Positions 18,232 through 55,317 of a stretch of DNA of 64,000 bases are shown piece after piece. A program made the position numbers and the translations under genes. Location of the stretch: positions 46,984,192 to 47,048,191 of the forward strand of contig NC_133657.1 in the NCBI RefSeq assembly GCF_009905375.1. Reading direction: 5' to 3'. Position 1 is the stretch's first letter; the number at the start of each line of letters is the position of its first letter. Source of the stretch: Apium graveolens (lineage: Eukaryota; Streptophyta; Magnoliopsida; Apiales; Apiaceae). The notes under the pieces are model-generated. The model had not been told where the DNA came from and searched no databases. It worked only from the letters and a program-made list of their open reading frames with translations.

Positions 18232-19483
18232 TTAGTTGGTAAATTGGGCATGTTGAATAGTTTTAGTGATTAATTTAGTTAATATCTGAGATCTGTTCTT
18301 GAATGAATTTACAAATGAATTTTTCATAAATGAAAAATTCATTTGCAAATTTATTTTATCATTTTATCATATTTCTTGCTTATTTCTATGTAATTTCTAT
18401 TATCTTATCTTATTTATTTACTCAACTTGTTAATTTTAATGTCTCAGAATATTTTATTTTCTCTAAAAATATTTTTCTATGAATTTAATTTGTTAAAATT
18501 CAAAAGAAATCTATTTTTGGACTGAAAATATAATTATCTTTGAAATATTTTAATTATTTTAATTATGTAAATATTTTCTGCAATATTCATTTCAGTTTTC
18601 TGAAATTGAAATATGTTATATATTCTGTTTTTTTATGTGCTTTTAACAGTTTTTATGTTAATTATTCAGTATATTTAAATACTTAATTTATCTTATACTA
18701 GAATGACAATCGGAAAGACAATTGAAATTGTCTTGCTGAAAGTCATTTCAGTAATAATGCTTGGTTATTTTTAAAATCAGATTAATTTTATAACTGGCAA
18801 GACAATCGGTATGACTATTGATTATCATGCCAGTAATAAAATTAATATCAGACTTTTTATGTTTTATTTTATACTGGTATGACAATTGGTATGACTATCA
18901 GATTGTCATACCAGTTATATATTATTATTTGTTTTGTTTTGTTTGTTTTTTTCTGGCTTTAAGCTGGTGTGACAATCGGTATGACAATCCGATTGTCATA
19001 CCGGTTATACTACTTAATCGTTTTTGTGTGTGTTTTAAGTTTCATCAGTTCAGTTTTTTGTTTTTCAAAAATTCCAACAGTCTCTCTTTCACTCTCTCTC
19101 TCTCTCTCTTCGAACAGCAAACACCATCTCAACCGCCATTGATCTCCTTTGCTCGAGTTTTTACTCAGCAATCTTACTCCTGTTATATATACTTACATAT
19201 ATATACATACAGGAGTGCTGCCAAAATTTTTTCAAAACTTTTTTTTCGAATCATTGTGTTTGTTGATTTTCGGTATTTTTAATTTAAATTTTAATTTCTG
19301 TTTTGTGTCTTTTGGCTTTTCAAATCTGCGTTTGTGAGTTAAGAATTTTAACGAGATACATTTCTGTCTAAATTTTTCGATTATAATTAATTTAATTCGA
19401 ATTATTAAATTAATTTAATTAATTCAAATTTTCTTAATATTATTCTTAAAATTCTGAAAGTGTGTGTCTTATTATTATTTTAA
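18232..19483 (+). promoter_or_regulatory. SIRE pol-ORF3 spacer: palindrome array and CT-rich leader
   Basis: No gene. An AT-rich stretch (18232-18700) is followed by four palindromes of the TATGACAATCGG family: 18715-18734, 18793-18834 (outer arms ACTGGCA/TGCCAGT), 18873-18915 (14-bp arms ACTGGTATGACAAT and its complement) and 18977-19003 (13-bp arms CGGTATGACAATC with one spacer base). Then comes a CT microsatellite (about 19081-19110) and a sequence resembling a plant 5' UTR up to the ORF3 ATG. Inferred to be a separate promoter/leader for ORF3. Confidence 0.7.
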
Positions 19484-22400
19484 ATGGCTCTCAATTTCCA
19501 AATTGTCGCGCATAATCAGGTTGGTTATTTTAATCCAGAAAAATGTGATGTGGCAAAATTTAAGCCATGGATTAGATTTTTAAATGACCATTCGATTGTT
19601 AGCTCTGCAATTAAATCAAATGTGATTTTAAATGTCGATCTGCTTAGACTGATTTGCACAACCTCTACTGTGGCCGATGATTCAAAATCTTTTTTCATTC
19701 ACCGTGGCAAACACACAGTATGTAGTTGATGAAACAGTCGTCAATCAAGCGTTAAATTTTCCATTGGACAATTTCTGTAATTTGCCCTCTGAAAATGATA
19801 TCACAAACTTTTTCCATGCTATTCACTATCAGGGGGTGATCAATTTAACCAAACTTTCAAAATCCAATTTGGTGTCTGAATGGGACATTTTCTTCGATAC
19901 ACTTTCTAAAGTGTTTGCCAACTGCACTAAATCCAACTTTCACAACATCACTTCCACTCTGTAGAATATTGGTCTTCCGGTTGTTTTCAATCAAAGGATC
20001 AATTTTGGCAAACTACTTTTTCCCATTCTCTTGAGACGTCTCACTACTGCTTTACGTGATCATTCTACAAATCGTAGGGTATCATGTTACTATGCTCGTT
20101 TTCTCATGCTAATAGCAGATCATCTTCTCACACCTGAGCACAAAGCCCTTTTTCCTAACTCTGCAGTAACCGAACCCCCTCCTGTAAGCAAAAAGATTTA
20201 CACCCGCCAAGACACAACCTTCAAATTCATGCAAGTTCCAGTACTTGTATCTGCTTTCATGGCCACTTATATTCCCTTACCTATTTTCAATCTTCCCGGT
20301 CATGAACAGCAACCTCAACCTCCAGTGGTTCAAGCCACCCAGGCTCCTCCAACATCAGATGCTCTTCCATTACAGGTAGTAATCCTCACTCTCACTCCAT
20401 TCCTACTTCTGTTGAAAGACCCCCAGTGGTCGATAGGACTAACCATGAAGTTGTAGAACCACAGCTTCAATCCCAGGTCATAGAGCCAAACACAGAGTCA
20501 CAACGTATCTCAACCTCTCCCCCATTGTCTAAAATGTTACCCAGAAGGTTAATAGGAAGTAGTGTATTGTTAAATGTGAGTGAACCCTCAGCTCTGCCTC
20601 CTCCCAAGAAAAGAAGAACATATACTGAGGCATCTGAAAGCCCATCCTTGTCCTCCCAACAGGACATGGACTTTGAAATGGCCAATGAACAGTTACTAGA
20701 GACATTCTCTCAACAGGATGAATCTATTGAAATTCGCCATAGGGCCATGGCATCTTATACTGAGTCAAGCACAATTCCATTACTCACAATGGAACCATAC
20801 ATACCCACAGATGATACTCAGGACACAGAGCAAGGAGTGCACATAGAGTCTGTTACAGTGCCTGCCATAGTTACGGCAGAAGAGCAGTCACATGCTTCTG
20901 AGGGAAAATCTGACTCTCAGCCACCCTTAATAGAGTCATTTTCTCCCCTCCCAGATCAAACACCTCTGGCTCCCTCACGGGATTCTCCACTCGCAGATTT
21001 ATCTGGAGAAAGTGGAGGGCAACTCGGTCAATCTATCCCTGAAGCAATTCAGACATCTATTTCACATGAAATGATAGGTTTGACTGAGGATAGGGACTCG
21101 CGAATTCCCATTGCACCACCACTGACCTCTCTTGAAGAGGCTAGGGTGATTTTAACTGCAGGTACAGAAGAACAGCAACAGGAAGACTCCTCACGAGCAA
21201 TTATATTGAGAGAAACACAAGCACGTGAGGTGAGTGAACCAAACACGAGTGAAATTCAGGTGAGAGCACACACAGACACAGACACTGAAAACCTGTTAGC
21301 TCAAATTGCTGCTCTAAAAGAAGAACTTGCTAAAAGCCAAGCTGAAGCTAAATCATTCAAAGCACAAGTGGTTGAACGGTCTTCTTCTTCCACCTTTGTC
21401 AACAATCAGCTGGCACTCATCAGGAATGATATCTCAGATCTCAAGAACACTGTCACACCAAAGCTCAATTCCATTCAGGAAACTCCAACTTTATCAGCTG
21501 ATGACATTTCTAACTTCTGCTCTCTACATACAAGAATGACTTCTCTTGAAGACCTGGTTGAAATGAATCATGCACTGGACTCTTCCAGATTTCTAAAGAT
21601 AGAAACGGGCATGGAACATCTTAATGAAGGAATGAAACACTTATATTTCATGATCAAGAATTCTCACTGCCCTAATGAAGAACAAAGAACTTACTTTGAA
21701 GGGCCGTCTGGTGGAGGCTCAGGCTCTGGAGGTGATGGAGGTCATGGAGGTTCTAAAGGAAAGTCAGTAGAGGATCCCTCAACTAAGGGGAGAAGAAAGG
21801 GAGTAGTGGAAAGGGGAAAGAAAAAGATACCTCTGCTGGAGACAAAGGAAAGGCTGATGATGTCTACTACAGTGGAGAACAGGATTACTTTGATATTTTT
21901 GACATTCCCACTGAACCAGTCTTGGAAGATAAAGATGGTTTATTTGAAGCTGAAGAGGAAAGTGATTTTGGAGAATGGGAAGAGGAAGCTACAGTGGATC
22001 CTATCTTTGAGAAAGAGTTTCAGCAGCAGCAGTCAGAGATGAAAAGAAAAGAAGCTGAACTCAAAAAGGTCTCCCAGATCATTGACATGAGGAAAGACAT
22101 ACAAAGAACAGAAACTCTTCAAAAGTAATGTCTTCATGACATTAAGGCTCAAGAAAGGAGAAGAGATGTCAGACTAAAGATTGGTGAAAAATGGGATGAA
22201 GCTAGGAGAGTACTTGATATGCCTCAGCTGAGCACTAACAATGATAGGCAGTTCCTACATCTTCTTGACAAGCTGGAAATCTCAAATCCTAACAATGACA
22301 TGTACATGAATGCTATCAAGACTGAAGTCTCAAGGATCACAGCTGCTTTTGACAGATCCCTAAATGAGATGAGCATTTTTGTATATTGTCAGAGTGAAGG

Positions 22401-22893
22401 ATCTTTCAAGGTGTCACTTCATATGTTTGAGAATCGTTCTTTGTCAGAGATTTGGGTTCTTCTCAACAAAGTAAAAAGAAGCTCAGAATTGAATGAAGTT
22501 CTTCGAGAAAGGCTTAAAGAGTTTGCCAGCAGGGCTAGTCCTCAAGTGGTCAACAATCCTCATCAGGTAAGATTCTTTAAGTCTGATTGTCTTCAAATCT
22601 GTCAGCTAGATGCACAATCTCTTAAAGACTACTCAGCTAAGCATCTGGTCTGGATGGAACATCATTTAAGAACTGCTGGATACTCATCCATGTTGAAGAC
22701 TCAAGCTGCTGATTTGATTCAAGCTTATTGTGAAAAGAATATTAAAAGGTACAATCAGATCAAGAATAAGCTGAAGTCAGTTGAAGTTCAACCAGTCAGA
22801 CCAACAAGCTTCACTTCAGAAAAGGATCGTGTCTTTGACAAAGAGTTGCTTCAAGATTTAGAAGAAGGTGAAGTCAGAAGAGAAGACAACTGA
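19484..22893 (+). pseudogene. SIRE ORF3 (extra ORF after pol), frameshifted
   Basis: Begins at ATG 19484 (MALNFQIVAHNQ) and ends at 22893 (DLEEGEVRRED). It would be about 1,130 residues but is broken by shifts near 19690-19715 (in a T6 run), 20375-20425 and 21790-21860, and by stops at 19962-19964 and 22126-22128. N-terminal about 300 residues: a globular region with VVDETVVNQALNFP, similar in style to the 'putative plant transposon protein' domain. Then a long Ser/Thr/Pro/Glu-rich disordered stretch, a coiled coil (LLAQIAALKEELAKSQAEAK, about 21296-21355), a Gly-rich patch near 21710-21760, an acidic segment, and a helical C-terminal domain (about 22230-22800). No signal peptide or membrane segment is visible, so the traditional 'envelope-like' label for SIRE ORF3 is not supported here. 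Role unknown. Confidence 0.8.
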
Positions 22894-23155: not shown

Positions 23156-24495
23156 TGAAAGGCATATGTCATAGCCTATTTGTTTATTCGAGGATATAAC
23201 TCAACTCAAATAAGAATGTAATAAGTAAATAGTGGATCTATCGTCAGAGAGATCTCACAGAGTAACATCTGTCAAAGGGTTAAGAAACATTATTCATCTA
23301 CAGACTTGAAGACTTAATTCACTGGAAGAAGCTCAAGAAATTGATCAAGCCTCAGTGATATAAATCAAGATTGTGCATTTAATCAAGTGACAGAGATCTC
23401 GTCAGGGTATCAATTAATTACAAGGATTTAGTCTGAAGAAAATCAAAGTATCAAAGTCAAGACATGAAGAAACGTCACGGAAGTTAGTCACTCATGAACC
23501 AGACAGTACATCGAGTGTCAACGTTGAAGTGGTGGAATTGATTCATATATTTCAGTGATTTTCAGAAGTTTTACAGGAGAATGGATGCTGCTCAGGGTTA
23601 GTGTTAATTCTCTATTAATTAATTAAGTCATATAATTTATTTAAGAAAATAAATTTTATCTACAAAGATTAATTTATTGATTAATTAAATTAATTGATTA
23701 ATTAATTCAGAATTAATATTAAGGTTTTTCAGAATTTTAATTGATTTAAAATTTGTTATTAATTCATAAAGACAACTGATTGTATTAGTATGACAATCGG
23801 TATGACAATCAATATTCATACCGAAAGTCATGCTAATTCAAAAGGATTGTCTTATCAGATTTTTTATTACATTAAAATCTATTATTAATTCAGTAAGACA
23901 ATCTGATTTTGAACTACTATGACAATCGGTATGACAATTGATAGTCATACCGAAAGTCTTGCTAGTTCATTCTGATTGTCTTGCCAGTTCAAAGAGATTG
24001 TCATGCCAGTACATTCTACTCGACTGTTGGATTAAAAGAAGCAGTAGAAGCAGTTCATTAAAATCGATCATACAGAATACACAAGTCAAGAACACAGCAG
24101 AAACAAAACGCAAGACATATCATTTTTCATCTGCTTTATTCAAGATCAAAATTCTAGATTGTAAAGTTAAATCCAAACCACTAGAATTATTTATCTTGTT
24201 CTTGTGTAACAATCTAGCGGATCAAAATCCCTAGAACTTAATCTCAAATCGCTTATAGCATTTGATCTTTTTATTGCAAAAATAGAAAAAGTTCATGTTG
24301 AATTTATTCTAGATTTGTGATAATTGATTTGAGATTAGTCCCTTGTAAACGATACCGTTGTTGTAACACCTTTCAAGTTTAATAATAATTTTATTTAACT
24401 TGAATTTTGTTTCATATTTTTATTCCGCATTTTATTCGATTAAACGGTATTGTTTGTATTCAACCCCCCTTCTACAAACATATTGAGACCTAACA
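23156..24495 (+). repeat. SIRE 3' LTR
   Basis: 1,340 bp, TGAAAGG to CCTAACA, followed by TSD GGATG (24496-24500). Carries a second copy of the palindrome array at about 23790-24011; the first palindrome has two non-compensated changes relative to the 5' LTR. Confidence 0.95.
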
Positions 24496-24500
24496 GGATG

Positions 24501-25331: not shown

Positions 25332-25390
25332 ATTTTTATGTAATAGTGGATTAAATAAACATTGATGTACACATAGAATATTTTGAGTAT

Positions 25391-25401
25391 AAGTGGGAGA
25401 T
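25391..25401 (+). other. CopA polypurine tract
   Basis: AAGTGGGAGAT directly before the 3' LTR; primes plus-strand DNA. Confidence 0.85.
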
Positions 25402-26496
25402 TGTTAGTGTATACTGAAAATATTTATTTGAAGTATGTACATTTATTTCTGGCCAGTTTATTTGAGAATCATTTGAATGTTTACATGTTGTCTAATATTA
25501 TATATTGTGAACAATCTAGTATCAAATGGGATACAGAATATTAGATTGTTAAATACGGTTATATAATATAATAAGGTTCACAGCACAGGTGGTGTTGGAC
25601 AATCCACTGGTATGGCTGTAGTATTATTTAGATTAGTTTATATTGACTAATAAATAATACTAGTATACTTTGTGTATATTGAACAGGATCAAATTTAGAA
25701 TTGTTCCCTTAATACTGATTAAGAAGGAGAACTAAGATTCTATGTTATTATTAATGCTTAGGTTCTTAATCCGGAAATAGTAATTGACACGTGTATATTA
25801 TTTACATGCTTTGATTTATATATGAAATAATCCTTTTGAATTATATCATTATATTTTGGGTGATGGAATTATATACATGGTGGATATTATTTATTGAAGG
25901 AATCCATGTCCTGATAATATTCGGGTTAATGATGTCCCCTTGAAAGCTCAAAAAGATTTAATTATGTGAAACCCTGCAGGTGGAATTTATTCTGGTATAA
26001 TTAAATAAAGGTTGAGTGGATGATCAAGGATAAAAGATATTAATTAAATAAATTATCAGTAATTTATTTAATTAATGGACATATGATATTTTAAACATGG
26101 GGAATTTAATAAGCAAATAATATTGGAACCGAATTAATTAAATTACGGTATTAGGAAAGGTAGTGCAAATATTAATTCTTTAGTGGATTGAATTAATATT
26201 TAATTACATTGGGCTAGGCTCAAGATATAATTAGAAGGCCCAACCTAATTATCCATAGTCCCTATTGTAGCCTATATATATTCTTATTCTCTTCTTGCTT
26301 GGGATTTTGTGAAAACATATTGTAGCCACCAAGGAGCAAGAAGAGAGGATAACTTGAGCAGACGGAGGCCACACTTCGCTCAAGGGAATTTGGGAATACA
26401 ATAGAAGAGCGTGAAATCAACCATTAACAAGGTAATCCTCTTTTCGTAATCTTTATCGTAAAACGTAGTAACACCCTAAGTCCGTGGTTCCCAACA
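25402..26496 (+). repeat. CopA 3' LTR
   Basis: 1,095 bp, TGTTAGTG to CCCAACA, followed by TSD CTTTT (26497-26501). About 25 differences from the 5' LTR, about three quarters of them transitions. Confidence 0.95.
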
Positions 26497-26501
26497 CTTT
26501 T
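26497..26501. other. TSD (CTTTT), right copy, CopA insertion
   Basis: Matches 6577-6581. The Ivana-like reading resumes immediately after. Confidence 0.95.
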
Positions 26502-32377: not shown

Positions 32378-32381
32378 GGTT

Positions 32382-32393: not shown

Positions 32394-32428
32394 TACAGTT
32401 TAAAGTCACTACCACAAGCGTAGATTGT

Positions 32429-33935
32429 TGTTAAGGCTAAACACGCGCTAATAATTCACGCAAGTATACGCGTTCAAAAGTAATATAGAATTATTTCTAG
32501 TTCGTTCCCAAAGAGACTGGCTTTGGTTATCTATGTAATTTCTGCACTTATGCATCGATGATATGGTTATTATCCAATGCTAAGACGATAACAAATTAGG
32601 TTGATTTTAACTATAAATTAAACTAACAATTATAACTAAGAGAGTAAAGATGGTTGTATATTATATGAGACAAACATGGGATTCTAACTTCATTAAATAC
32701 TTCATTCAATTACCTTATTGTTCTTAATCTTAGCATGCAATGGTGATGACACTAATCAGATAACACGAAATTGCTAAATGCCAACTTTCGTTACACGAAT
32801 AACATACTATCATACATCCACAAAAGTGATATAAGCTGAATAGACACCAATTATATTGAGACCCTATATGTCTATAGAATTTGACAACATAAAGGTCTAA
32901 AACACAAGTTATCTATCATGATTACACAGGGCAAGTAAGATGGTTAAAATTACCTACGAATCATGCATAACAATAACACATGAACCTATGCTAGCATGGC
33001 AAGTTCTAAATCCTTAAATTCACAGTCAATTCATTAAAGATTAACACGCTATCTTACAAGTTCACGACTCTTATAAGAGGAATAAGCACAACCAATACTA
33101 GGTTATCATACAATCACCATACACTAAGGCATCGAAACATTTTAACTAAAGAAATCCTTAAGTAAATCCGCTAGAATCCCACGATAACGATTAGCCCATT
33201 ATCGGACTCATTATCAATGTGGGTTCCGATGAAAGCATGGTATAATATAGTCTTTATACTGAATTACGTTGTTTCTATCTACTATTATCTAAAAATAATC
33301 AAGTTATTAATGACTGGACGAACCCAAGAAATAACCCCTCACGTACAAAACCTAGTATGAAATAAGAGTAAGGTTCACAAATAAGAAAACTAGCATCCAA
33401 GTTACAAATTAGAACAATGATTCACAAGTAAAAACAAGATCTTCTTCTTCTTCGTTGAATCGTGCTAACACGGTCTTCTTACGGCTCTCGTTACGCTCTG
33501 GTACGTCTCTCTCCTAAAAACGTCCTTTATTTGAATATATATAGCAGCCCATGGAATCTAGAAGTCCTCTAATTGTAATTAGAATAGAATCAGGATTTTG
33601 CAATCCCGACCCGGCGCGGCCGCGCGCTTCATTAGCGCGGGCGCGCTGCCTCTCTGACAAACTGGCGCGGCTGCGCGCTTGACCAGGGCGCGTGCACCGT
33701 ACTTCTGATTCTTCTTTTCCTTGCTACTTCGAGCCGGATTTCCATGAGCTTTTTTTCCAGCACCACCTTAACACCAAATTAGCACCAAAATAATGCTAAT
33801 TCACCTGATTACCTAGATAATGCCTGAATTGCAAAAACACTAGAAAACACGTCAAAACACTTAACAACTTGAGTACAACTACATCAATTCAAAGCTTAAT
33901 AGAGCATTATAAAGTGTCATAAATGCCACTCAACA
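32429..33935 (-). repeat. AthB 3' LTR
   Basis: 1,507 bp. On minus it runs TGTTGAGTGGCATTT to TTTAGCCTTAACA. TATA-like sequence (TATATATATTC on minus) lies at about 33531-33545, with the GC-rich palindrome array 33614-33695 upstream of it. Only about three-quarters similar to the AthC LTR by eye, so the two are different subfamilies. Confidence 0.85.
33614..33695 (-). repeat. AthB LTR GC-rich palindrome array (51-bp period)
   Basis: Units GCGCGGCCGCGCGCT (33614), GCGCGGGCGCGCT (33635), GCGCGGCTGCGCGCT (33665) and CAGGGCGCGTGC (about 33684). Unit pairs are about 21 bp apart and the pair repeats every 51 bp. Matches the internal array at 36676-36811. Confidence 0.85.
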
Positions 33936-35138
33936 TTACCCCAAACTTGAATCGATGCTTGTCCTCAAGCATAAACAGACTCAAAGAACAAGAAAGAAAA
34001 ATGCATAAATGTAACTAAATGAATGCCACGATCCCAATAGAATAACTAAACCAATCAATAAACAACATCTCAACAAATGCAGTTACTCGCATAACGATGA
34101 ATCAAATCATACAAATCAACATATAAACTAGAGACGTGCGTGTGTGCAAATGCTTACAGATATACTATCGCAACTAGATCATTAAACATGACTCATTACT
34201 CAACAAGGCAATCGCAAAGTTATAAATAAAATAAAAAGCTGGACTGAAAATAACTTATAACACTTCAATTCTTATATTGGAGTTTTATATGGATTCACGC
34301 TTTTATTCAAACAAAACAACATATTTATGCTTATTTGATCGTGCAATGAGTGAGGTCCACAAAAGACTTATGCAATAGTACCCATGTAGCGAGCGTTAGG
34401 TTAGCGTATCCCAGACTATAAAAGCCTTAGGTCACTAGGCACAAAATCCCCTAAGAACTTAATAACTCGATTACTAAAGAGCCCACTTGTGATCAATTAT
34501 ACATAACACATATTATTTTTCTTTCTTTTTTTTCTTTTTTTTTTTCAATTTCTGAACGAGTGTGTTTCGCTCCATCTCGTTCAACCCTAGACTACTTATA
34601 TAAATATGAGCCGGCTACTAGCCATTTGACACCTAGCCACAACAACTAGCAATGAAATCCAATTTTTCTCAAATTTCTAAAAATTCATGTTATTTTATTA
34701 TGAAGAAAATATCCTAAATTTTAAATATAAATAAGAGATTAAACCTCGGCAAACAAACAAACCATGATCATGATATAGCACTTAAGCAACCTATAAGACT
34801 TAGTAAAATACAAGTGTCTCTAACATGCAAATCAACTTAATATGACTCAACATCTTTAAATACGACATTGCTACACTAGCATCAATATCACAAGTCAATC
34901 GACAAAATCATCTAAGGGATCATGTAATGCAAATACATGAAATATATGAACAAACTAACATGAAAGCTATCAAAAATAAAAAAAAACTACATGGCAAAAT
35001 ATGCAACTATATGAACTAAACTATTATGAATATGCAACTATATGCGACTCACACAAAACATATTCCTTCAACTACTACCGCTAAACTTAAAATATTCACG
35101 ATCCTCAATGAAGGTAATAGTAAGGAATTCAAGCATAC
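33936..35138 (-). other. AthB 3' UTR with PPT and conserved pyrimidine/hairpin block
   Basis: No ORF. PPT on minus (AAGTTTGGGGTAA, about 33936-33949) abuts the LTR. The block at about 34380-34640 is also present in AthC (46060-46335) and, on the plus strand, in AthA (42190-42520): a CCCAGACTATAAAAG segment, TCACTAGGCACAAA, a T/C-rich run, and an arm pair GAACGAG/CTCGTTC flanking TGTGTTTCGCTCCAT. Directly after the ORF3 stop (about 35070-35090) is a decayed second PPT-like sequence. Confidence 0.65.
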
Positions 35139-36355
35139 CTAATCAGAATCAGGCTCCTCACCCTCAACGGGTGGAGTGTCAGATGTGTTCGGAGGTGGAT
35201 ACACGGAATTCTCACAAAAAACTGGCTACTGGATGTCAACACCGGTGGCTCTAAAAGTTGTCCCCAATGCTTGGGTGAGATCTCGTGCAAACTTGTTGTG
35301 GATGTCATGCATCACATCCATCCTCCTTTCCAGATGCTTGTACTGCGTCATGCTCATGCCAGCTCCCATATCAGCTCCTTCCTCCTGCTCATGTGCCTGC
35401 TACGATGGCCCCGCCTCATCTCCTAGCTGAGATCTCCATGCAGCCCTGCTCGCCTAAGTGGCACCAGCAGCTTGCCTCCCACCAAGTAGATGGTCAAAAG
35501 TATAACTAAGCCCCTATAGATCGGGCTTGCCTCCATCCTATTCTTGCATTGTGGCCAAAGTAGTGCACTTAATAGGAGCACTTGGGAGCTGCAACTGCTC
35601 ATGTGCGAGCTAATAAACACCAACTGTCACGCAAAGCTTCGTCATAACTGACGCATATGGAATACACCTCGTGGTACTCCTTCTCAAGAACTTCAGAATC
35701 CCCTGATAAATCACCATCCCAAGATCCACATAATCGCCCTGAAGAATGCCCCACAACAGCCGTGCACGCTCCACAATAATCTCATGCACATGAGAAGATG
35801 GTATGATGTTAGCACAAATAAACGTGTTCCATACACGGGCAAACCTGGTCATGCTGGAAGCCGGGAATGTAGAATACTCAGTAGTGCCCCTCTTGATCTT
35901 CCAATGAGTATCGGGTTGGCACAGTGTAGTAACAATAAGATCCAGATCAAAGTCCCCTGAGTCTTATCATTCCAAATGTCCTGCCCGGGCTTCCTCGCGG
36001 GCTGCTCAATCACCGTCCTAATAGTCTCTGCAATGTACTCCACAGTCCTCCCTCGAACCACCCTGAAGCCATTCTTCTCGGCCTTCATGTTCGAATTGAA
36101 ATCGAGAACAACACTCATGGGCACAGATGCGGGTGCCTCGCAAAAAGGAACCCATCCCATCTTCAGAATCATCTCCAACAGCTGACCATCCTTCCCTGAT
36201 GGCAAAAAATCTCGCTCCTTGATGTTCGGCTTCGAAAGAAGCCTCGTATACTCCGCTTCAGCCTCCGGAGTAGAGAACCTCGGCCTTATACCAGCCATAC
36301 TTGAAGAATCGGTGGTGCTGCTGCTTACTTGTGTTCTTTATCTCTTGGGTGGCAT
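35139..36355 (-). pseudogene. AthB ORF3: plant-transposon-protein-like, frameshifted
   Basis: Start ATG at 36353-36355 (MPPKR, then a TAA where AthC has Ser). The frame is open again from 36298 (MAGIRPRFSTPEAEAEYTRLL) to about 35940; after a frameshift, 35852-35610 has RVWNTFICANIIPSSHVHEI and ERARLLWGILQGDYVDLG. The C-terminal tail (about 35340-35142) has RRMDVMHDIHNKFARDLTQALG and ends near EGEEPDSD. It resembles the family annotated as 'putative plant transposon protein' (Pfam PF20167, from memory), not a viral envelope: no signal or membrane segment. Homologous throughout to AthC ORF3 (46738-47924). Confidence 0.75.
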
Positions 36356-36970
36356 TGGAATTGAGTAGAGAGAATAAGAGTTTGTGTTGAGAGAGAATAA
36401 GAGTTTGTGTTGAGAGAGAATTTGTGTTTGAGAATTTGTGAAGTGGTGAAGAAGTTTGTGTATAAGGTATGTGTATATATTAGTGGTGAAAAGAGAATTA
36501 TATATGGAATAGAAGTGGGATTTGATTATGGGAATAATGGGAGTAATGGGTTTGATTTGGAGAGGGAAATTTGGGATGTGGGGGAGTAAAATTCGGTTAG
36601 AAATTGATTTTGTAGCAAAAATCCCAATTTTCTCCTCTAAAACTGCCTTTTATTTTTTTCAGAATCGGGACCAAGGCGTGGCCGCGCGCTAGGACAACGA
36701 GGGCGCGCGCTACTTCTGCCAAGCCGGCGCGGCCGAGCGCTGGAACAACGTGGGCGCGTCGTGTTTCTGTGATTTCAGCGCGGCCGCACACTAGGACAGC
36801 GCGACCGCGCTAGGCTTCTATAGTCGGTCTTGAATTTTTCACTTTTTCTGATTTTTTCTGTGATTATCTCTTTTTTTCTTGCTTCCTCTACTTATTAATG
36901 TACAACAAACTTGGGTTGCCTCCCAAGAAGCGCTTGTTTTACGTCGTTAGCTTGACGTAGAAACTCGAGA
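36356..36970 (-). promoter_or_regulatory. AthB pol-ORF3 spacer: putative ORF3 promoter
   Basis: In transcription order (minus): two conserved hairpins near the pol end (ACGTCGTTAGCTTGACGT 36941-36958; CTTGGGTTGCCTCCCAAG 36910-36927), the six-unit GC palindrome array (36676-36811), TATA-like ATATATAATTC and ATATATACAC on minus (about 36470-36510), and a CT/CA-rich leader with a 23-bp tandem duplication (about 36369-36423). This is promoter plus 5' UTR organisation; function is inferred. Confidence 0.6.
36676..36811 (-). repeat. AthB internal GC-rich palindrome array (51-bp period)
   Basis: Six units, starting at about 36676, 36697, 36727, 36748, 36778 and 36797: three pairs of units about 21 bp apart, repeating every 51 bp. 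Typical unit GCGCGGCCGAGCGCT. Same unit and spacing as the AthB LTR array but one period longer. Confidence 0.85.
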
Positions 36971-37412: not shown

Positions 37413-38862
37413 TGATAAGTGGATTTTACATCCACTTGGAATGCTTCATTGCAAGCTTAAGTTGGTATTTTGATATATTTTTTTGTTATTGCATTTCAGG
37501 TATCAGTTAAATAAAGAAAAGAGCTTTTAAAGGAAATATGATAAAAAGTGATCAGAATTGGAAGCCTAGGCCACTGTCAAGTTGTAGAGAATCTTTTTAG
37601 CTTCGCGTGGGCAGTTGAATCACCTAATTCTGACGAGTAGAACTCAAGTTATGGCCAAAACAAGATTCATCAGATTTTTTTCCAAAAAGGCTCCAGGCGC
37701 CCGCCTGGGAGCTGGGGCGGCCGCCCGGGAGCTGAGGCGGCCTCCTGAGGCGCGGCTGGTCGCTGATTTCGCTGAAAAAGCCTTTTTGAGTGGAATTTGA
37801 CGATTTTAAGGGTCCAGGTCCACTAGGGGCGTATATATACTTAAAAAAAGGGTTTTCATCATCCAGGAAGATTGGGATACCAAGGAGAAGACCTAGAAGC
37901 ACAAAACAACTCAGAAAAAGAAGTTCTTATTTTTAACTTGTGATTCTTTGAATTAGTTGTAACTTTGGATGCTCGTTTTCATTCTTGTTGAACCTAGATC
38001 TCGTTTATTCCTACTTTAATTATTATTCAGTTTATTAAGACCTTGTTTTATACCATGCTTTCATTGGAACCCATGGTGACGATGAGTTCGATTATGGGCC
38101 AATCGTTATCATGGGGTTCTACCGGATTTACTTATGGATTTCAATAATTAATTTGTTTTGATATCTTGATGTGTGGTGATTGATTGATATCCTAGTATTG
38201 GTTGTGCTTATTCGTCTTATGTGTGTAGCTAATATATAAGATAGCGTGTTAATCTCTATTGAAGCGATAGTGAATATAGAGGTTTATAACTTGCCATGCT
38301 AGCATAGGTTCATGTATTGTATGCATGATTAGTGGGTAACTCTAACCATTTTATTTGCCCTGTGTAATCATTATAGATAACTTATGCTTAAACCGTTATG
38401 TTGTCAAATTCTATAGACATATAGGGCCTCAATATAATTGTTGTCTATTCAACTTCTATCTCTTTTGTGGATGCTTGGTAGAATTGTACTCGTGCAACGA
38501 AAGTTGGCGTTTATCAGTTTCGTGTTATCTGATTAGTGTCATCACCATCGCATGCTAAGGTTAAGAATAATAAGGCTATTGAATGAAGTATTTAATGAAG
38601 TTAGAATCCCATGTTTGTCATATATATTAATTCAACCATTCTTGTTCTCTTAGTTAATGTTATTTAGTATAATCTCTTAGTTTAATAAAAAGCCAATTTG
38701 TTATTTGTCTTAGCATTGAGCGATAACCATACATTGTTGCATATGTGCATAAATTGAACTTAACCTAAACCAGTCTCCGTGGGAACGAATCTGATTTATA
38801 TCTTATACTACTTGCGAACGCGTATACTTGCGTGAATTTTAGCGCGTGTTTTCGCCCAAACA
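37413..38862 (+). repeat. AthA 5' LTR
   Basis: 1,450 bp, TGATAAGTGGATTTTACATC to TTTCGCCCAAACA. A GC-rich 20-bp tandem array (37696-37755, three units of GGCGGCCGCCCGGGAGCTGA type) lies about 80 bp upstream of the TATA-like GTATATATACTT near 37832. Confidence 0.93.
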
Positions 38863-40699: not shown

Positions 40700-41527
40700 T
40701 TGCCTCCGAAGCTTAAAGATCCTGGAAGCTTCACTATTCCTTGCACCATCGGAAACTTGTCGTTCGACAAGTGTTTATGTAATTTAGGAGCTAGCATCAA
40801 TCTAATGCCCTTATCTATCTTCAAGAAGCTGGGTCTGCCTGATCCGGAACCAACATACATGTCGTTGCAACTAGCTGACTGTTCCATCGCTTATCCACGA
40901 GGTATAGTGGAGGATGTCTTAGTCAAGGTGGATAAACTCATCTTACCTGCTGACTTTATAATTCTTAATTTTGAGGAAGATAAGAATATTCCCATTATCT
41001 TGGGGAGACCATTCTTGGCTACAGGTCGAACTATGATCAATGGGCAAAAAGGAGAGCTTTCGATGAAGGTTTACGATCAAAAGGTCACTTTTAATGTGTT
41101 CAAGGAAATAAAGTTACCCACAGCTAAAGATGAGTGCTTTAAAGTAGAGTGGGTGGACTCTGTCGTGAATTCGGAGCTTGAGCAATTGCCAAAGTCAGAT
41201 ACCTTAGAGAGATCCTTAATAGGGGAATCAGTTATTGAAGATGAAGAAGGAGTAGAACACCTGCAGGTTTTGGATGCACTTTCGTGGAAGAGGAATTTGG
41301 ATATGCCATTCGATTCTCTTGGGTTAGCAGAGCTAAAAACTTCTCAGGAGCGTTTTGAACCATTTATTCAAGAAGCTCCCACACTTGAGCTCAACCGAAT
41401 GCCAGATCACTTGAGTTATTCATTCTTAGGTGCACCCCCTAACAAGGGGTTTGGATATACTTTTGACGATGTAGAGGGTGACCATCCGTTTTCTGTCGTG
41501 CTTACAAATAGTCCCTCTCGTGCATAA
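40700..41527 (+). pseudogene. AthA aspartic protease region
   Basis: A 275-codon open stretch. The protease active-site segment reads CNLGASINLMPLSIFKKLG (about 40780-40835); the catalytic Asp of the family motif DLGAS is Asn here, consistent with G-to-A mutation. ILGRPFLATGRTMI follows near 41000. Ends with LGAPPNKGFGYTF and NSPSRA. In AthC the RT follows; here it does not. Confidence 0.85.
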
Positions 41528-41725
41528 CAGGTAGTTGATAGGTTTGGTCTTGGTGATGAACAGTATAGAAGATTGACTAGGCGTAGAGAGGCCATGCATG
41601 TCATCCACTGATATTTTGCTGATGATTTGACACACACTTTCGGTACTGTTGTCTGAGACACTGGTGGCGAGTTTAATTGGCCACCTGATCCTCCACCCAA
41701 TGAGGTTGACTCTCCCGCTAATTAG
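41528..41725 (+). pseudogene. AthA: C-terminal tail of ORF3 joined to protease
   Basis: In the frame after the protease stop: RRLTRRREAMHVIH, a stop, YFADDLTHTFGTVV, a stop, FNWPPDPPPNEVDSPAN and TAG at 41723-41725. This corresponds to the ORF3 tails of AthB (RRMDVMHDIHNKFARDLTQALG) and AthC (RRMDAMYDL, then FKQELTQALGTVF). RT through most of ORF3 was therefore lost in the AthA lineage. Confidence 0.75.
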
Positions 41726-42960: not shown

Positions 42961-44453
42961 TGATAAGTGGATTTTATATCCACTTGAAATGCTTCATTAC
43001 AAGCTTAAATTGGTGTTTTGGACTCAAGTTGTTGGTATTTTGATGTATTTTTATGTTATTGCATTTCAGGTATTAGTTAAATGAAGAAAAGATATTTTAA
43101 AGGAAATATGATAAAAAGTGATCAGAATTGGAAGCCTAGGCCATTTTCAAGTTCTGGAGAATCTCGTTAGCTTTGCGTGGGCAGTTGAATCGCCTAATTC
43201 TGACGAGTAGAACTCAAGTTATGGCCAAAACAAAATTCATTAGAATTTTTTCCAAACAGGCTCCAGGCGCCCGCCTGGGAGCTGGGGCGGCCGCCCGAGA
43301 GCTGAGGCGCCCGCCCGGAGAGCTGAGGCGGCCGCCTGAGGCGCGGCTGGTCGCTGATTTCGGTGAAAAGCCTTTATTGATTGGAATTTGACGATTTTAA
43401 GGGTCCAGGTCCACTAGGGGTGTATATATACTTAAAAAAAGGATTTTCATCATCCGAGAAGATTGAGATACCAAGGAGAAGACCTAGAAGCACAAAACAA
43501 CTCCGAAAAAGAAGATCTTGTTTTCAACTTGTGATTCTTTGAATTAGTTGTAACTTTGGATGCTCGTTTTCGTTCTTGTTGAACCTAGATCTCGTTTATT
43601 CGTACTTTAATTATTATTCAGTTTATTAAGACCTTGTTTTATACCATGCTTTCATTGGAACCCATGGTGACGATGAGTTCGATTATGGGCTAATCGTTAT
43701 CATGGGGTTCTAGCGGATTTACTTATGGATTTCAATAATTAATTTGTTTTGATATCTTGGTGTGTGGTGATTGATTGATATCCTAGTATTGGTTGTGCTT
43801 ATTCGTCTTATGTGTGTAGCTAACATATAAGATAGCGTGTTAATCTTTATTGAAGCGACAGTGAATATAGAGGTTTAGAATTTGCCATGCTAGCATAGGT
43901 TCATGTATTGTATGCATGATTAGTGGGTAACTCTAACCGTTTTACTTGCCCTCTGTAATCATCATGGATAACTTATGCTTAAACCGTTATATTGTCAGGT
44001 TCTATAAACATATAAGGTCTCAATATAATTGGTGTCTATTCAACTTCTATCTCTTTTTTGGATGCTTGGTAGAATGGTAATCGTGCAACGAAAGTTGGCG
44101 TTTATCAGTTTCGTGTTATCTGATTAGTGTCATCACCATCGCATGCTAAGGTTAAGAACAATAAGGCTATTGAATGAAGTATTTAATGAAGTTAGAATCC
44201 TATATTTGCCATATATATTAAGTCAACCATTCTTGTTCTCTTAGTTAATGTTATTTAGTATAATCTCTTAGTTTAATAAAAACCCAATTTGTTATTTGTC
44301 TTAGCATTGAGCGATAACCATACATTGTTGCATAGGTGCATAAATTGAACTTAACCTAAACCAGTCTCTGTGGGAACGAATCTGATTTATATCTTATACT
44401 ACTTGTGAACGCGTATACTTGCATGAATTTTAGCACGTGTTTTCGCCCTAACA
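42961..44453 (+). repeat. AthA 3' LTR
   Basis: 1,493 bp, TGATAAGTGG to CGCCCTAACA, followed by TSD CCTTG (44454-44458). Carries four units of the 20-bp GC array (starting 43266, 43286, 43306, 43327) against three in the 5' LTR. Confidence 0.93.
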
Positions 44454-46014: not shown

Positions 46015-46049
46015 TAGGCACAAAGTGCCCTAAGAACTTATGCAAAAGC
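46015..46049. other. Fusion scar with filler DNA between AthB and AthC
   Basis: The 26 nt at 46015-46040 match 46119-46144 with a single mismatch (TAGGCACAAAGT, then CCCTAAGAACTTA). A second short copy, CTTATGCA, occurs at 46037-46044 and 46050-46057. Templated filler of this sort marks end-joining repair of a deletion. Confidence 0.65.
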
Positions 46050-46737: not shown

Positions 46738-47924
46738 CTACTCAGATGAATCATCATCATCGCCCTCAGAGGGTGGAGTGTCAGGAGGTGGATAAACAGA
46801 ATCCTCACCAAAAGCGGGCCACTGGATGTTAGCTCCAAGGCCTCTAAATACAGTCCCAAGTGCCTGGGTGAGCTCCTGCTTAAACCGACTCTACAAATCA
46901 TACATCGCATCCATCCTCCTCGAAAGCCTCCTGGTACTGGACATCAGCCAATCTCGAACCATCTCCTCCATAAGCTCTCAAAGAGCCTGCCTCTCCCTAA
47001 GCCTGACTGGGCCTAGCCATGGTAGCACCAGCTGCTGGAACTCCTTCTGGAAGGTGATACCCCAAACCATGTGGCTTGGGCTCTCCACTGGTCCACTCCT
47101 GCATCGCATTCAAAATCGATGAATCAATAGGAGTGGCCTGCATCTGCAGCTGCTCATACGAAGGCCACTGGACTCCAACAGCCTTGCAAAGCTTCGTGAC
47201 AATAGAGGCATACAGGATAGAGTATTGCGATTTCCCCCTCAAAAACTTCAAAATCCCTTGGTAGATGTACTCACCAAGGTCCACATAGTCATCATTCAGA
47301 ATCCCCCACAATAACCTCGCCCTCTCCACTATAACCTCATGTGCATGCGAAGAAGGAAGAATATTAGCACATATGAACGCATTCCACGCACGAGCATACA
47401 TTTTCATCGCGGTAGCAGGAAGTATGATAATTATTGGATCCCCTTTTGAACTTCCACACTGTGCCCGGCTGATAGAGAGTAGCAACAATCAAGTCCGAAT
47501 CAAAGTCCTCAGGGGCCTTTGAATTCTAGCGCTCCTCCTGTGGTTCCCTTTGTCGCTGTCCAATCACACGACGAATCGCCTCCGGCTGATAATCAATATT
47601 AAGCCCACGAACAACAGAAAACCCATTCTTGTCAGCCTTGGCATTTCCATAGAACTCGCGAACAATACTCATCGGAACCGCCTCGGGTGACTCGCAAAAT
47701 ATAATCCATCCCTTCCCAGCAGCAATCATCGGCAGCAACTCACCATCCCTCCTTGATGGCAAGAACCCCCTCTCCCTTATAATAGGTTGAGTCAGAAGCT
47801 TGGTGTACTCTTCTTCAGCAGCCCTATCAAACAATCGGGGCCTCGCAACAGTAGTCCTCGAAGAATCAGTAGCAGTCGGATTAGTGCTGCTGCTACCCAC
47901 AGTTCGTGATCTCTTTGGGGCCAT
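46738..47924 (-). pseudogene. AthC ORF3: plant-transposon-protein-like
   Basis: ATG at 47924 (MAPKRSRTVGSSSTN). An open frame to 47526 carries LFDRAAEEEYTKLLTQP, GWIIFCESPEAVPMSIVREF and GLNIDYQPEAIRRVIGQRQ. A frameshift leads to 47488-46997 with YARAWNAFICANILPSSHAHEV, ERARLLWGILNDDYVDLGEYIYQGILKFL and IVTKLCKAVG. The tail (about 46925-46741) is RRMDAMYDL ... PPPDTPPSEGDDDDSSE. Basic N-terminus, acidic C-terminus, no signal peptide or membrane helix. Resembles the 'putative plant transposon protein' family (PF20167, from memory). Function unknown. Confidence 0.8.
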
Positions 47925-48404
47925 GAGAACTGAGAATAAGAGTTAGAGAGTTTATGTTTGGTGTGTAGGAGAGATTTTGTATATTTGAAAGTGTGTGGGA
48001 TGTGTATGGAGAGGTTGTATGTATTTGTAGGGCAAGATTAGGGTTAAAATTTGATTAGGAGTGGGGATTGTGGCTAAGTAGGGGAAGAAAATCGTGGGTT
48101 AATGGGTGATATGGTTTCTGAAACACTCTTAATAAAACTTGAATTTTTTTGTGAATTTTTTTCAGTAAAAATGATTTTTCAAAAGTCAGGGTCGCACGCG
48201 GTCGCGTGAAACCAGCACGCGGTCATCTGCTGGCACGCGGTCGCGTGCTAGGCTACGGGAAAAAAAATTCTGCAACTTTTTTCAGAATTTTTTTGGGTTT
48301 TTGGATAAAGTACTATATTCTAAGGTGTCCTTTGGTCTCATATCTTGGGTTGTCTCCCAAGAAGCGCTTCTTTTACGTCATTAGCTTGACGTGGAGTTAT
48401 GCGA
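47925..48404 (-). promoter_or_regulatory. AthC pol-ORF3 spacer: putative ORF3 promoter
   Basis: In transcription order (minus): hairpins ACGTCATTAGCTTGACGT (48375-48392) and CTTGGGTTGTCTCCCAAG (48344-48361), both conserved with AthB; then the CACGCGGTCGCGTG array (48195-48249), a TATA-like CTACAAATACATAC (about 48016-48030, minus) and a CT/CA-rich leader to the ORF3 ATG. Confidence 0.6.
48195..48249 (-). repeat. AthC internal CACGCGGTCGCGTG array
   Basis: Three units at 48195, 48216 and 48234, i.e. spacing 21 and 18 bp (39-bp period). Same unit and spacing as the AthC LTR array at 55004-55078. Confidence 0.88.
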
Positions 48405-49571: not shown

Positions 49572-49599
49572 ATATGGTTCATCCTACATGTACCACTTC

Positions 49600-51301
49600 A
49601 CCTCATGCAAAACTTCTTCTTTTGAGCCGCATTCATATTAGGAGGCATTATATTGCTAACAAGATAGTTCACAATGTCTGTGAACCATGGCTCTTCCTCC
49701 TGAATTGCGAACAACTACTCATCAGGAAAAGATTCGTTGATCAACGTCTTATCATGTGAAGTAAAATTGGGATTCTCCAATCTAGAGAGATGGTCAGCTA
49801 CTTGATTTTCTATACCTTTTCGATCCTTGATCTCTAACTCAAATTCCTGTAGCAAGAGAACCAACGAATAAGTCTAGGCTTCGAATCCTTCTTTGAGACC
49901 AGATAGCGGATGGCAGGGTGATTAGTGAACACTGTCACCTTTGTTCCAAGTAGATAAGATCAAAATTTTTCGAAACCATAAACTATAGCCAAAATCTCTT
50001 TCTCAGTAGTGGTGTAGTTCAGTTGGGCTTCATTTAGCATCTTACTAGCATAGTAGACCACATGAAAGATATTATTCTTTTGCTGCCCAAGAACTGCTCC
50101 CACTGCATAATCACTTGCATCACACATCATCTCAAAAGGTTCTCTCCAATCAGGTGCCGTAATAACTGGTGCTGTGATTAAACTCTTCTTGAGAGTCTCG
50201 AATGCTGCCAAGCATTCATCATCAAATTTGAAAGGCACATCTTTCTTGAGCAAGTTGCACAACAACTTAGATATCTTAGAGAAGTCCTTGATGAAATGCC
50301 GATAAAAACCCATGACCAAGAAAGCTACAGATTCCTTTCACAGAAATAGGTGGCGGAAGATTTTCAATGACGCCCACCTTGGATTTATCCACCTCAAGAC
50401 CTTTACTAGAGACCTTATGCCCAAGAATGATGCCTTGTTGCACCATAAAGTGACATTTTTCCCAATTGAGCACCAGATTGGTTTCAATACACCTTTTGAG
50501 CACCAAATGGAAATTATTCAGGCATTCATCATACGAAGTTCCAAAGATGGAGAAGTTGTCCATAAACACTTCGACATTATTTCCAATCATCTCAGAGAAT
50601 ATAGCCATCATGCATCTCTGAAATTTGGCAGGTGCACCACATAAGCCAAAAAAAACTCTGTGAAAAGCAAACATGCCAAATGGACAAGTGAAAGTAGTCT
50701 TCTCTTGATCTTCTGGTGCAATGCAAATTTGATTGTAGCCCGAATAGCCATCCAGAAGATAATAATACTCATGACCAGCCAACATGTCAAGCATCTGATC
50801 AATGAATGGAAGAGGGAAGCGATCCTTCCTCGTGGCTTTATTCAACTTCCTGTAGTCCATTTATACCCTCCAACCTGTGACTGTTCGGGTGGGGATGAGC
50901 TCATTCTTCTCATTTGCTACCACAGTAATACCTCCTTTCTTAGGTACACATTGCATGGGGCTCACCCAAGAACTGTCAGAAATAGGATATATGATTCCTG
51001 CATCCAGCCATTTTAGAATTTCTTTCTTCACCACTTCTTTCATGATTGGATTAAGCCTTCGCTGTTGCTCAACAGTCGGCTTTCTACCTTTCTCTAGCAG
51101 AATTTTATGCATGCAGTATGAAGGGCTGATCCCTTTTATATCTGCTATAGTCCATCCGATGGCCGATTTGAATTCTCTCAGAATCCTCAAGAGCTTGTCC
51201 TCTTCACTACCTGAAAGGTCAGATGCAATAATAACAGGAAAAGTAGATGCATCACCTAAAAAAGCATACCTCGAGTGTTCAGGAAATGGTTTAAGCTCCA
51301 A
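49600..51301 (-). pseudogene. AthC reverse transcriptase and RNase H
   Basis: From 51301: LLRILREFKSAIGWTIADI, HKILLEKGRKPTVEQQRRLNP and PKKGGITVVANEKNELIPTR, then a TAA (50861-50863) just before MDYRKLNKATRKDRFPLPFID. The RT core has FCFGLCG-type FFGLCGAPAKFQRCMMAIF and MDNFSIFG (in place of the usual FxDD box, near 50570), as in Athila. A frameshift near 50310 leads to RNase H (50319-49960) with FEMMCDASDYAVGAVLGQ. The rest, down to about 49600, is decayed. Confidence 0.88.
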
Positions 51302-52225
51302 AGTAGGTGGTTCCTAAATAGATGGTTTGAGCTTTCCCTCGGCATTCTTGAGATTAGTATTTCCAAGAAATTCAAATGCCATGTCTAGCTTCCGTTTCCA
51401 AGGAGAAGCATTTAGATATTGTAACTGCTCATTGCCTTCATCATCTTCACTATCAAAATCCCCCAATAAGGCTTTTTCTAAGGCATCGGACCTTAGCACA
51501 TGATCAAGTTCTGAAGTAACTGCAGAATTGACCAAATCCACCTTGAAGCACTCCTCATCTTCTATAGGAAATTTCATCGCATTAAACACATTAAATGTCA
51601 CATCTTGATCTTGCACCCTCATAGTGCGTTCACCTTTCTGCACATCTATCAAGGTACGACCTGTAGCCAAGAAAGGTCTTCCCAAGATTATGGGAATCTT
51701 CTTATCATCCTTGAAATCTAGAATGACAAAATCTGCAGGAAAGATGAGCTTGTCCACCCTTACTAGCACGTCCTCCATAATGCCTCGTGGGTATGTAATC
51801 GAACAATCAGCAAATTGTAGAGACATGTAGGTGGGCTTCAGATCAGGAAAATTGAGCTTTTTGAAGATAGATAACGACATCAGATTGATGCTTGCTCCCA
51901 AATCGCAAAGGCAATTGTCAAATGGCAGCTTGCCAATGGTGCAAGGAATGGTGAAGCTACTTGGATCCTAAAGCTTTTGAAGTAACTTTTGTTACAGCAC
52001 GTCACTACACTCTTCCGTTAGAGCAACAGTATCAAGATCATCCAGTTTCACCTTCCTTGAAAGAATACCTTTCACGAATTTCGCATAACTAGGCATTTGC
52101 TCAAGAGCCTCAGCGAAATGTATGTTGATGTGAAGTTTCTTGAACACCTCCAGAAACTTACTAAATTGCTTATCCAGCTTTTGTTTTTGCAATCGCTTAG
52201 GAAAAGGTGGTAGAGGATAGAGCTG
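51302..52225 (-). pseudogene. AthC gag C-terminus and aspartic protease
   Basis: 52192-51992: KQFSKFLEVFKKLHINIHFAEALEQMP. After stops, 51970-51314 reads IPCTIGKLPFDNCLCDLGASINLM with an intact DLGAS motif, then KIPIILGRPFLATGRTLI, and ends NAEGKLKPSI. Same frame as RT apart from stops. Confidence 0.88.
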
Positions 52226-53634: not shown

Positions 53635-53899
53635 TGTTTCATGTTCCTTCTTTTCACTCTCTTTATCCGAATCTGTAAAAAATATCTTCTCCGCAAAGTC
53701 AAGAGCTTTATCTGTTTCCTCAGCTTTATCGAAAATTCTCTTGCGAGTGCGAGAACGTGTTTGTATAAACGCTCGCTAGAGTACCTGGAACACAACCGGA
53801 AGCAGTAAGTAACAAGTCTTAATCAATGAATCCTAATGACCACAGATGGCAAGTACATAAACTAAACAAATTAACACCGAGTCCCCGACAGCGGCGCCA
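53635..53899 (-). other. AthC leader and PBS
   Basis: PBS on minus TGGCGCCGCTGTCGGGGAC (53881-53899), differing from AthA at two central bases. The remaining leader has no ORF. Confidence 0.8.
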
Positions 53900-53905
53900 A
53901 AAACT

Positions 53906-55317
53906 TGTTAGGCAAAAAGCATGCGCTAAATAAATCATGAAAGTATACGCGTTCACAAGTAATATAGAATGATTTCTAGTTCGTTCCCACAGAGACTCTG
54001 ATTAATTATATTTAATTAACACTTACTCACCAATGTATGATTATTCTTCAATGCCAAGACAATATCAATCAATATTGGTTAACTAATATTAACTACGAGA
54101 ATTAAACACTTGAATTAACAATATTAAACACACATGAGATCCTAACTTCATTACTACTTCATTCAATAGTTATTGTTATTAACCTTAGCATGTAATGGTG
54201 ATGATATTAATCGAACAACATAAAACTGATAAACGCCAACTTTCGTTGTACAAATACCATTCTACCAAGCATCCACAATTTAGATAGAAGTTGAATATGC
54301 ATCAATTATGTTGAGACCCTATATGTCTACATAATTGAACAACATAACGATTTAAGCACAAGTTATTCATGATGATTACACAGGGCAAGTCAAACGGTTA
54401 GAGTTACCCACTAATCATGCATACAACACATGAACCTATGCTAGCATGGCAAGTTCTAAATCTCAAGATCCATTGTCGCTTCACAAGAGATTAACAGGCT
54501 ATCTTACATGTTCGCGACACATATAAGACGAATAAACACAACCTATACTAGATATCATACAATCACCACATACCAAGGTATTAAATAATTAACTAAAGAA
54601 TTCCATAATAAATCCGCTATAATCCCATGATTACGATTAGCCCATAATAGAACTCATCATCACCATGGGTTCAGATGAAAGCATGATAATAACACAATGA
54701 TATAAGTCTAAAAAATACTTATTAAATAATGAAGTATGTCACAAGAGTATTAATGTTCAAAGCATAAAGAAAACTAGCATCCACAGTTACAACGAATTAA
54801 AAGAATCACAAGATAAACTAATGCTTCCTCTTCTTCGTTGTTGCGTGCAAAAACGGTCTTCTCAATCTTCTTGCCTTCGCTCTGGTTCTCGTTAAAGAAA
54901 ACGTCTTCCCATAAAGTTTATATAAGAGTCCAGGAGTCACCGCGCCATAGAAACCCAAACAGAGTTAAAAATGAATAAAACCAGCATATGAATTTTCGCA
55001 CGAACGCGGTCGCGTGCTTCCTCCACGCGGTAGCGTGCTGGCGTGCGGTCGCGTGCTCCTAACGCGCGATCGCGTGCTACCCTTCTGGAAAATTCTCCAT
55101 TTTGCTCCTGTTTATGCTGATTTCTTTGCTCATCACCCCTAGACTGATTCCAAGCACTTCCTTAAGCTTTATTTGATGAAAACCACCTATCTAAGCAAGT
55201 TAAACCCTGAAATACAAAAACACTAGAAAATGCGTCAGATACACAAAATACTTGAGTCCAAGACACCAATTCAAGCTGTTATGAGACGCTCTAAGTGGTA
55301 TAAAATGCCACTTATCA
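53906..55317 (-). repeat. AthC 5' LTR
   Basis: 1,412 bp; on minus TGATAAGTGGCATTTTATAC to TTTTTGCCTAACA. TATA-like TTATATAAAC (minus, about 54916-54926) lies about 80 bp downstream of the palindrome array 55004-55078. Confidence 0.88.
55004..55078 (-). repeat. AthC LTR ACGCGGTCGCGTGCT array
   Basis: Four units at 55004, 55025, 55043 and 55064 (spacing 21, 18, 21; 39-bp period), in sequence that is otherwise AT-rich. Confidence 0.9.

Follow-up and report, generated by a model that had tools for sequence, protein, structure and literature searches.

Cognate repeat arrays in the long terminal repeat and before the third open reading frame of copia-type and Athila retrotransposons of Apium graveolens

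Two unrelated kinds of plant long terminal repeat (LTR) retrotransposon carry the same type of array at the LTR promoter and in a promoter-like region 5' of the third open reading frame (ORF3), which suggests a shared switch for self-regulation. The window analyzed is a stretch of 64,000 nucleotides of Apium graveolens (contig NC_133657.1, positions 46,984,192 to 47,048,191; assembly GCF_009905375.1), and the elements under study are one SIRE element (Ty1/copia) and three Athila elements (Ty3/gypsy), AthA, AthB and AthC, with AthA nested in AthB. As claimed in the initial annotation of this DNA, SIRE, AthB and AthC each have one LTR array and a cognate array in the noncoding spacer 5' of ORF3; AthA has lost the spacer and most of ORF3 (∼100 C-terminal codons are left) and retains its LTR arrays. 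What the third ORF does in Athila and Sirevirus elements has been a standing question ever since the label “env-like” was applied to it, and the shared module makes the question testable. The likeliest reader of the shared control sites is, putatively, the ORF3 protein.

Matched arrays and a candidate internal promoter

Similarity of the SIRE, AthB and AthC spacers to their own LTRs was 6.6 to 14.9 standard deviations (SD) above that of shuffled sequences, versus ≤2.7 SD for the other LTRs of the window and ≤1.3 SD for nine internal regions of the same elements (single exception, 4.0). Chance and low complexity as the source of the matches are ruled out by these shuffles and cross-element controls. 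The array is the sole strong spacer-LTR match in AthC; SIRE, in which dyad motifs are repeated in the LTR and 5' of the third ORF, has one further strong match (score 51) in AT-rich sequence at spacer positions 19386 to 19453. Duplication of a whole LTR into the spacer is unsupported, since the array matches stand out from the remainder. Faster evolution of arrays than of flanks is unproven, since the LTRs of AthA, AthB and AthC align poorly across the whole of their U3 half, and perfect 10-bp palindromes are uninformative as a statistic.

Some SIRE units, read by eye, hold CGG and CCG in dyad. The sequence CGRYCG is absent from both SIRE arrays tested, and the Athila arrays hold 12 of the 18 occurrences in the window. 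The CpG observed/expected ratio is 0.84 to 1.23 in Athila LTRs and spacers versus 0.45 to 0.67 in Athila coding parts, and is also high (0.89) in certain noncoding stretches elsewhere in the window. Serving as a control, the outer copia element has no tandem array in its LTRs and gave no tblastn match with five ORF3 relatives; its internal part holds two matches to the AthB motif at ≤2 mismatches.

An exact SIRE 19-mer occurs 17,345 times in the genome, versus 0 for the reversed control. Among 100 listed places there were 47 same-strand neighbor spacings of <15 kb, 45 of them in four classes defined post hoc, after inspection of the positions: 11 at <400 bp, 9 at 4.7 to 5.1 kb, 22 at 5.7 to 7.2 kb and 3 at 10.5 to 12.5 kb. 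The corresponding distances in the window are 4.8 kb (spacer to 3' LTR) and 6.0 kb (5' LTR to spacer). However, the 3 pairs checked out of 13 at ∼6.1 kb were the two LTRs of short derivatives (LTR pair identities of 99.85, 96.1 and 99.3%), not an LTR and a spacer. The DNA 5' of their 3' LTRs held only short ORF3 remnants; a further 1.2 kb upstream in one of them held one extra remnant, with all forward-frame open pieces ≤91 codons, and lacked the array motif at ≤1 mismatch. The N-terminal part of ORF3 is likely lost from this derivative, ∼2 kb of its middle lying outside the stretch read. In these young copies each LTR still has the exact motif, with no exact 19-mer in between. Short derivatives of this kind (L001 to L007 and L061; G000:C1 near 1.09 to 1.35 Mb) have LTR pairs 96.1 to 99.85% identical; they are recently mobile, with LTR arrays retained and, where read, ORF3 remnants only.

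Further Athila copies of the host genome share the design of LTR array plus spacer array, in part with different motifs, and some combine ORF3, spacer promoter signals and a cognate LTR array; the array anatomy is solid and extends beyond what the initial annotation could show. The survey took the best 20 of 150 listed places matching Pfam family PF20167, at 8 kb each, and therefore leans to one Athila family, F1. By a GC-block criterion, a block was present in the spacer of 17 of 20 copies, in the downstream region of 13 and at both places in 12 (manual count), these figures including two copies (L053 and L058) whose spacer blocks are not arrays on reading. Cognate specificity at the level of single elements inside F1 is unsupported. 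One copy of a second family, F2 (L032), has two unit types in identical order in spacer and LTR. One Athila copy (L029 and L059) has an altered spacer array motif, with GCTCA ends, partly common to its own LTR.

Of 30 Athila loci, 12 had no recognizable ORF3 ATG and were dropped. TATAWAW lay ≤330 bp 5' of the ORF3 ATG in 17 of the 18 scored spacers (4.2 expected), every one of these 17 having a site at −96 to −108 from the ORF3 start, and in all but one of the 18 a GC-rich block ended farther 5', between −216 and −278. Because the loci are related, the fixed TATA reflects conservation within families and does not amount to 17 separate occurrences. The AthA, AthB and AthC LTRs have a TATA box 62 to 76 bp 3' of the array. 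Promoter-like signals were initially noted in all three spacers of the window; TATA sites are present in those of SIRE and AthB, at other distances from the ATG than in the genome-wide loci, and AthC has none by the TATAWAW pattern. The best reading is that the spacer holds a candidate internal promoter, from which ORF3 may be transcribed and which would share control sites with the LTR.

Element boundaries (Table 1) were drawn from self-comparison, repeats, direct reading of the sequence and protein domains; computed comparisons of the AthA LTRs ran on 37412 to 38852 (5') and from 42960 (3').

Table 1. Positions of element features in the window
Feature	Positions	Strand	Remarks
SIRE 5' LTR (Ty1/copia, Sirevirus-like)	12336..13655	+	97.0% identical to 23156-24495
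SIRE LTR array	12940..13176	+	inverted-repeat units with GTATGAC/GTCATAC half-sites
SIRE gag-pol	13873..18231	+	RVT_2, copia gag, integrase
SIRE pre-ORF3 spacer	18232..19483	+	
SIRE spacer array	18693..19009	+	4 units matching LTR array
SIRE spacer TATAWAW sites	19184..19204	+	3' of spacer array, 286-300 bp 5' of ORF3 ATG
SIRE ORF3	19484..22893	+	split among several frames; each piece searched separately
SIRE 3' LTR	23156..24495	+	array at 23780-24016
AthB LTR	32429..33945	-	
AthB LTR array	33605..33705	-	GCGCGGCCGCGC type; TATA 62-64 bp downstream
AthB ORF3 (PF20167)	35148..36355	-	frameshifted
AthB spacer array	36670..36820	-	TATAWAW at 36504
AthA 5' LTR	37413..38862	+	array 37690-37762, motif GGCGGCCGCC, steps 20-21 bp
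AthA ORF3 C-terminus remnant	41429..41710	+	∼100 recognizable codons
AthA 3' LTR	42961..44453	+	array 43258-43350
AthC ORF3 (PF20167)	46741..47924	-	broken frames
AthC spacer array	48188..48256	-	motif CACGCGACCGCGTG; steps 18, 21 bp
AthC LTR	53905..55318	-	array 55000-55085, steps 21, 18, 21 bp; TATA 76 bp downstream
Outer copia element LTR (control)	6581..7678	+	partner LTR 25401-26499

The SIRE pol belongs to Ty1/copia (RVT_2, 1.2e-70, plus copia gag and integrase domains). The name “Sirevirus” rests on ORF3 and the array layout, and SIRE looks like a further Sirevirus bearing RM repeats. Markers of the Athila lineage are PF20167 in ORF3, a gypsy-type gag domain (Retrotrans_gag) in AthC and an integrase domain (rve) in AthB; no reverse transcriptase was scored for AthC because the piece at 50861 to 51310 gave no domain match. 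The sequence CCTTG flanks AthA at 37408 to 37412 and 44454 to 44458 and resembles a 5-bp target-site duplication inside the AthB pol. At 46011 to 46043 the AthB pol adjoins the 3' untranslated region of AthC, and the AthC 3' LTR and the 5' part of AthB were not seen, a pattern as after deletion or recombination between the two. Long C and G homopolymer runs (45121 to 45135 and 30405 to 30421) are possibly polymerase or assembly artifacts, and the 17-mer GGACCAGATTCGTGGTC stands in perfect tandem duplication at 31744 to 31777.

Properties of the ORF3 protein

PF20167 matched all 57 Athila-type ORF3 relatives scanned, and the SIRE ORF3 pieces matched no Pfam family over the cutoff. Named relatives of the SIRE ORF3 come from two genera of Apiaceae, Apium and Heracleum. 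Searching the genome with a SIRE-type relative yielded 73,142 first-look candidates; scoring covered the best 70, and 63 of them are open over at least 1,128 codons (manual count). The Athila ORF3 domain is under purifying selection, with a median ratio of nonsynonymous to synonymous substitution (dN/dS) of 0.24 within F2 (28 pairs), 0.22 within F1 (21 pairs) and 0.12 between F1 and F2 (39 of 56 pairs, the ratio not being computable for the other 17); 15 of 30 domains were dropped for stops. Arabidopsis Athila env has a reported dN/dS of 0.19 to 0.30, with negative selection also in pol-less elements, in the accessible text of PMC2410132. Between AthB and AthC, pieces of at least 80 amino acids are 77 to 90% identical in pol and 53 to 69% identical in ORF3.

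Many ORF3 copies carry motifs resembling nuclear signals. A basic site was covered by 21 of 45 SIRE-type matches, with P.KKR[RK] in 13 of these and absent in 8; among Athila-type proteins of at least 300 amino acids, 25 of 33 start with MAPKR, MPPKR, MAPPKR or MASKR (read by eye). We take these basic motifs to be nuclear signals by their likeness to known ones, and the protein may be nuclear. The lack of membrane features, part of the initial annotation, held up: in a crude hydropathy test, the Kyte-Doolittle 19-residue maximum reached at least 1.6 in only 2 of 33 and 3 of 33 relatives, and ORF3 has little resemblance to an envelope protein. Weak matches of the SIRE ORF3 to coiled-coil families suggest possible oligomerization. 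Relatives in PDB numbered zero for the SIRE ORF3 and two, at chance level, for the Athila ORF3, and no related plant DNA was confirmed in viral and genome contig collections.

Homology of the SIRE and Athila ORF3s is suggestive. With hhalign, the SIRE and Athila N-terminal domains aligned colinearly over 128 to 165 columns at an E value of 0.016 to 0.024, with a probability of just 2 to 3%; column shuffles reached the score in 1 of 150 and 4 of 500 cases, and in 0 of 500 over at least 100 columns. Among weak Pfam matches, the SIRE domain scores best with PF03078 ATHILA (E, 0.031; 2 of 11 members), a family of Athila ORF1 that a sunflower study relates to PF20167 (PMC11728184, in its accessible part). 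HMM-to-sequence searches in both directions were negative, and an earlier 8-row Athila alignment gave no profile match to the SIRE ORF3.

Candidate readers of the arrays

By analogy with VANC proteins, ORF3 may read its own arrays at the LTR and at the internal promoter, a reading that we favor tentatively and at somewhat below even probability. ORF3 would be a nuclear-type, non-envelope accessory protein expressed from an internal promoter in the pol-ORF3 spacer; this promoter and that of the LTR share an array of dyad sites specific to the element family, placed in Athila 5' of the TATA box; and ORF3, most probably in dimeric or oligomeric form, would bind the arrays and activate or de-silence the LTR as well as the promoter of ORF3 itself. 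The outcome would be a positive self-recognition loop, VANC-like in its working with no kinship to VANC implied, of which the LTR array that derivatives without ORF3 sequence (AthA and the short SIRE copies) retain would be the cis part. The idea of a self-recognizing factor fits because of the nuclear-signal-like motifs, the greater divergence between AthB and AthC in ORF3 than in pol, and the purifying selection. The overall interpretation in the initial annotation is partly supported. If ORF3 reads the arrays, this would explain why these abundant plant elements keep it under selection and why derivatives keep arrays without it, and would provide a second class of transposable element with built-in, sequence-specific self-activation; the module can be tested in vitro with one protein domain and short DNA. 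The broader proposal, that one ancient ORF3 domain common to Sireviruses and Athila across the copia/gypsy divide is a nuclear, sequence-specific, anti-silencing self-recognition factor that reads family-specific dyad arrays at the LTR and at its own internal promoter, appears rather unlikely; if true, retrotransposons would have their own equivalent of VANC, and SIRE and Athila could no longer be read as carrying a “plant retrovirus envelope.”

It is quite possible that host transcription or chromatin factors bind the arrays instead, the spacer array being copied from the LTR enhancer and driving ORF3 from an internal promoter, and ORF3 having a different role. Host factors account equally well for the dual arrays, the TATA boxes and the published association of linker arrays with ENV. 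One shared host factor on both promoters predicts near-identical anatomy, and the identical order of unit types in the spacer and LTR of L032 is as expected after block copying. The initial annotation held that dual arrays equally common in elements lacking ORF3 would speak against ORF3 as the reader, and the Sirevirus families described in the accessible text of PMC2829016 answer in part: every RM-bearing Sirevirus that has ENV (9 of 9) and none that lacks it (0 of 4) carries linker arrays, yet ENV-less families retain LTR arrays, as host factors would allow, and six ENV-bearing families have no RM boxes. What host factors leave unexplained, barring frequent copying, is the change of motif between families (GGCGGCCGCC, GCGCGGCCGCGC, CACGCGACCGCGTG and CTGAGCGGCCGCGCAG) with LTR and spacer matched. 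If host factors do bind, the arrays indicate a plant regulator hijacked by two superfamilies.

Action of the inverted repeats as RNA hairpins (in export, in translation or as a source of small RNA) rather than as DNA sites is improbable, although all 6 SIRE stretches tested are much more stably folded than their shuffles (z, −3.1 to −8.3) and six SIRE hairpins (18696 to 19005 and 12940 to 13130) have 11 G-T versus 2 A-C mispairs, a weak hint, as the units are related. Five of six Athila array stretches fold no better than shuffles (the exception is the AthC spacer; z, −4.2), so hairpins as a general feature are unsupported for Athila, and the Athila LTR arrays, upstream of the TATA box, would lie outside the expected transcript.

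An envelope function of retroviral type or a movement function for ORF3, with the arrays merely controlling its expression, is very improbable. Its traditional name and its position favor this, as do transmembrane domains discussed for some such ORFs in the available parts of PMC11728184 and PMC7264820; against it stand the few candidate membrane segments, the nuclear-signal-like motifs and the sunflower Athila PF20167 ORF, predicted to be nuclear, with a membrane helix in a separate minus-strand ORF (PMC11728184). Least probable of all is a functionless exchange in which template switching or gene conversion carried arrays from LTR to spacer or back, which would suit the block similarity in L032 but not the restriction of the strong AthC match to the array, the fixed TATA position behind the array in scored spacers or the raised CpG of Athila LTRs and spacers relative to coding parts (some other noncoding DNA being high too).

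Comparison with known systems

The Sirevirus half of the module was already published in 2010 by Bousios et al. (PMC2829016), who described palindromic RM repeats, located both within the LTRs of Sireviruses and 5' of ENV. As here, the motifs are element specific, and the LTR copies lie just 5' of the TATA box. The accessible text raises regulation and an internal promoter and terms the RMs Sirevirus specific; unlike the present proposal, it does not put forward ENV as the reader of the boxes, and it reports no Athila array. Among the matches listed in the open-access literature, which misses most subscription papers, none describes the Athila array module. The 3' additional ORF of sunflower Athila likewise has PF20167 and a nuclear localization signal, but a repeat array, an internal promoter and self-recognition are not mentioned in the accessible part of PMC11728184. 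Grande gene23, as outlined in the available text of PMC7264820, is similarly a nuclear protein from an accessory retrotransposon gene with its own promoter, but it lies in antisense orientation and no cognate LTR array is mentioned.

A parallel in working is that of VANC proteins and their tandem motif targets in VANDAL DNA transposons (PMC5735166 and PMC10398659, accessible parts). The analogy drawn initially stands in that VANDALs, like SIRE and Athila, have short, family-divergent motifs in tandem within their own noncoding DNA, and their accessory protein is less conserved than the transposase. It does not extend to the VANC domain DUF1985 (PF09331), which was not found at the sequence level among the best 25 of 26 Pfam families for 57 Athila-type members, the Pfam matches listed for 11 SIRE N-domain members or the best 25 of 38 families for 16 longer SIRE-type members. 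VANDALs are MULE DNA transposons, unlike the LTR retrotransposons SIRE and Athila, and binding and methylation loss, demonstrated for VANC, are for ORF3 only presumed by analogy. A 2026 study of LTR methylation in sunflower (PMC12844716) does not, in its accessible part, name an ORF3 array module, but it reports an Athila clade with low LTR methylation and, citing VANC, leaves open an Athila-encoded factor that shapes methylation.

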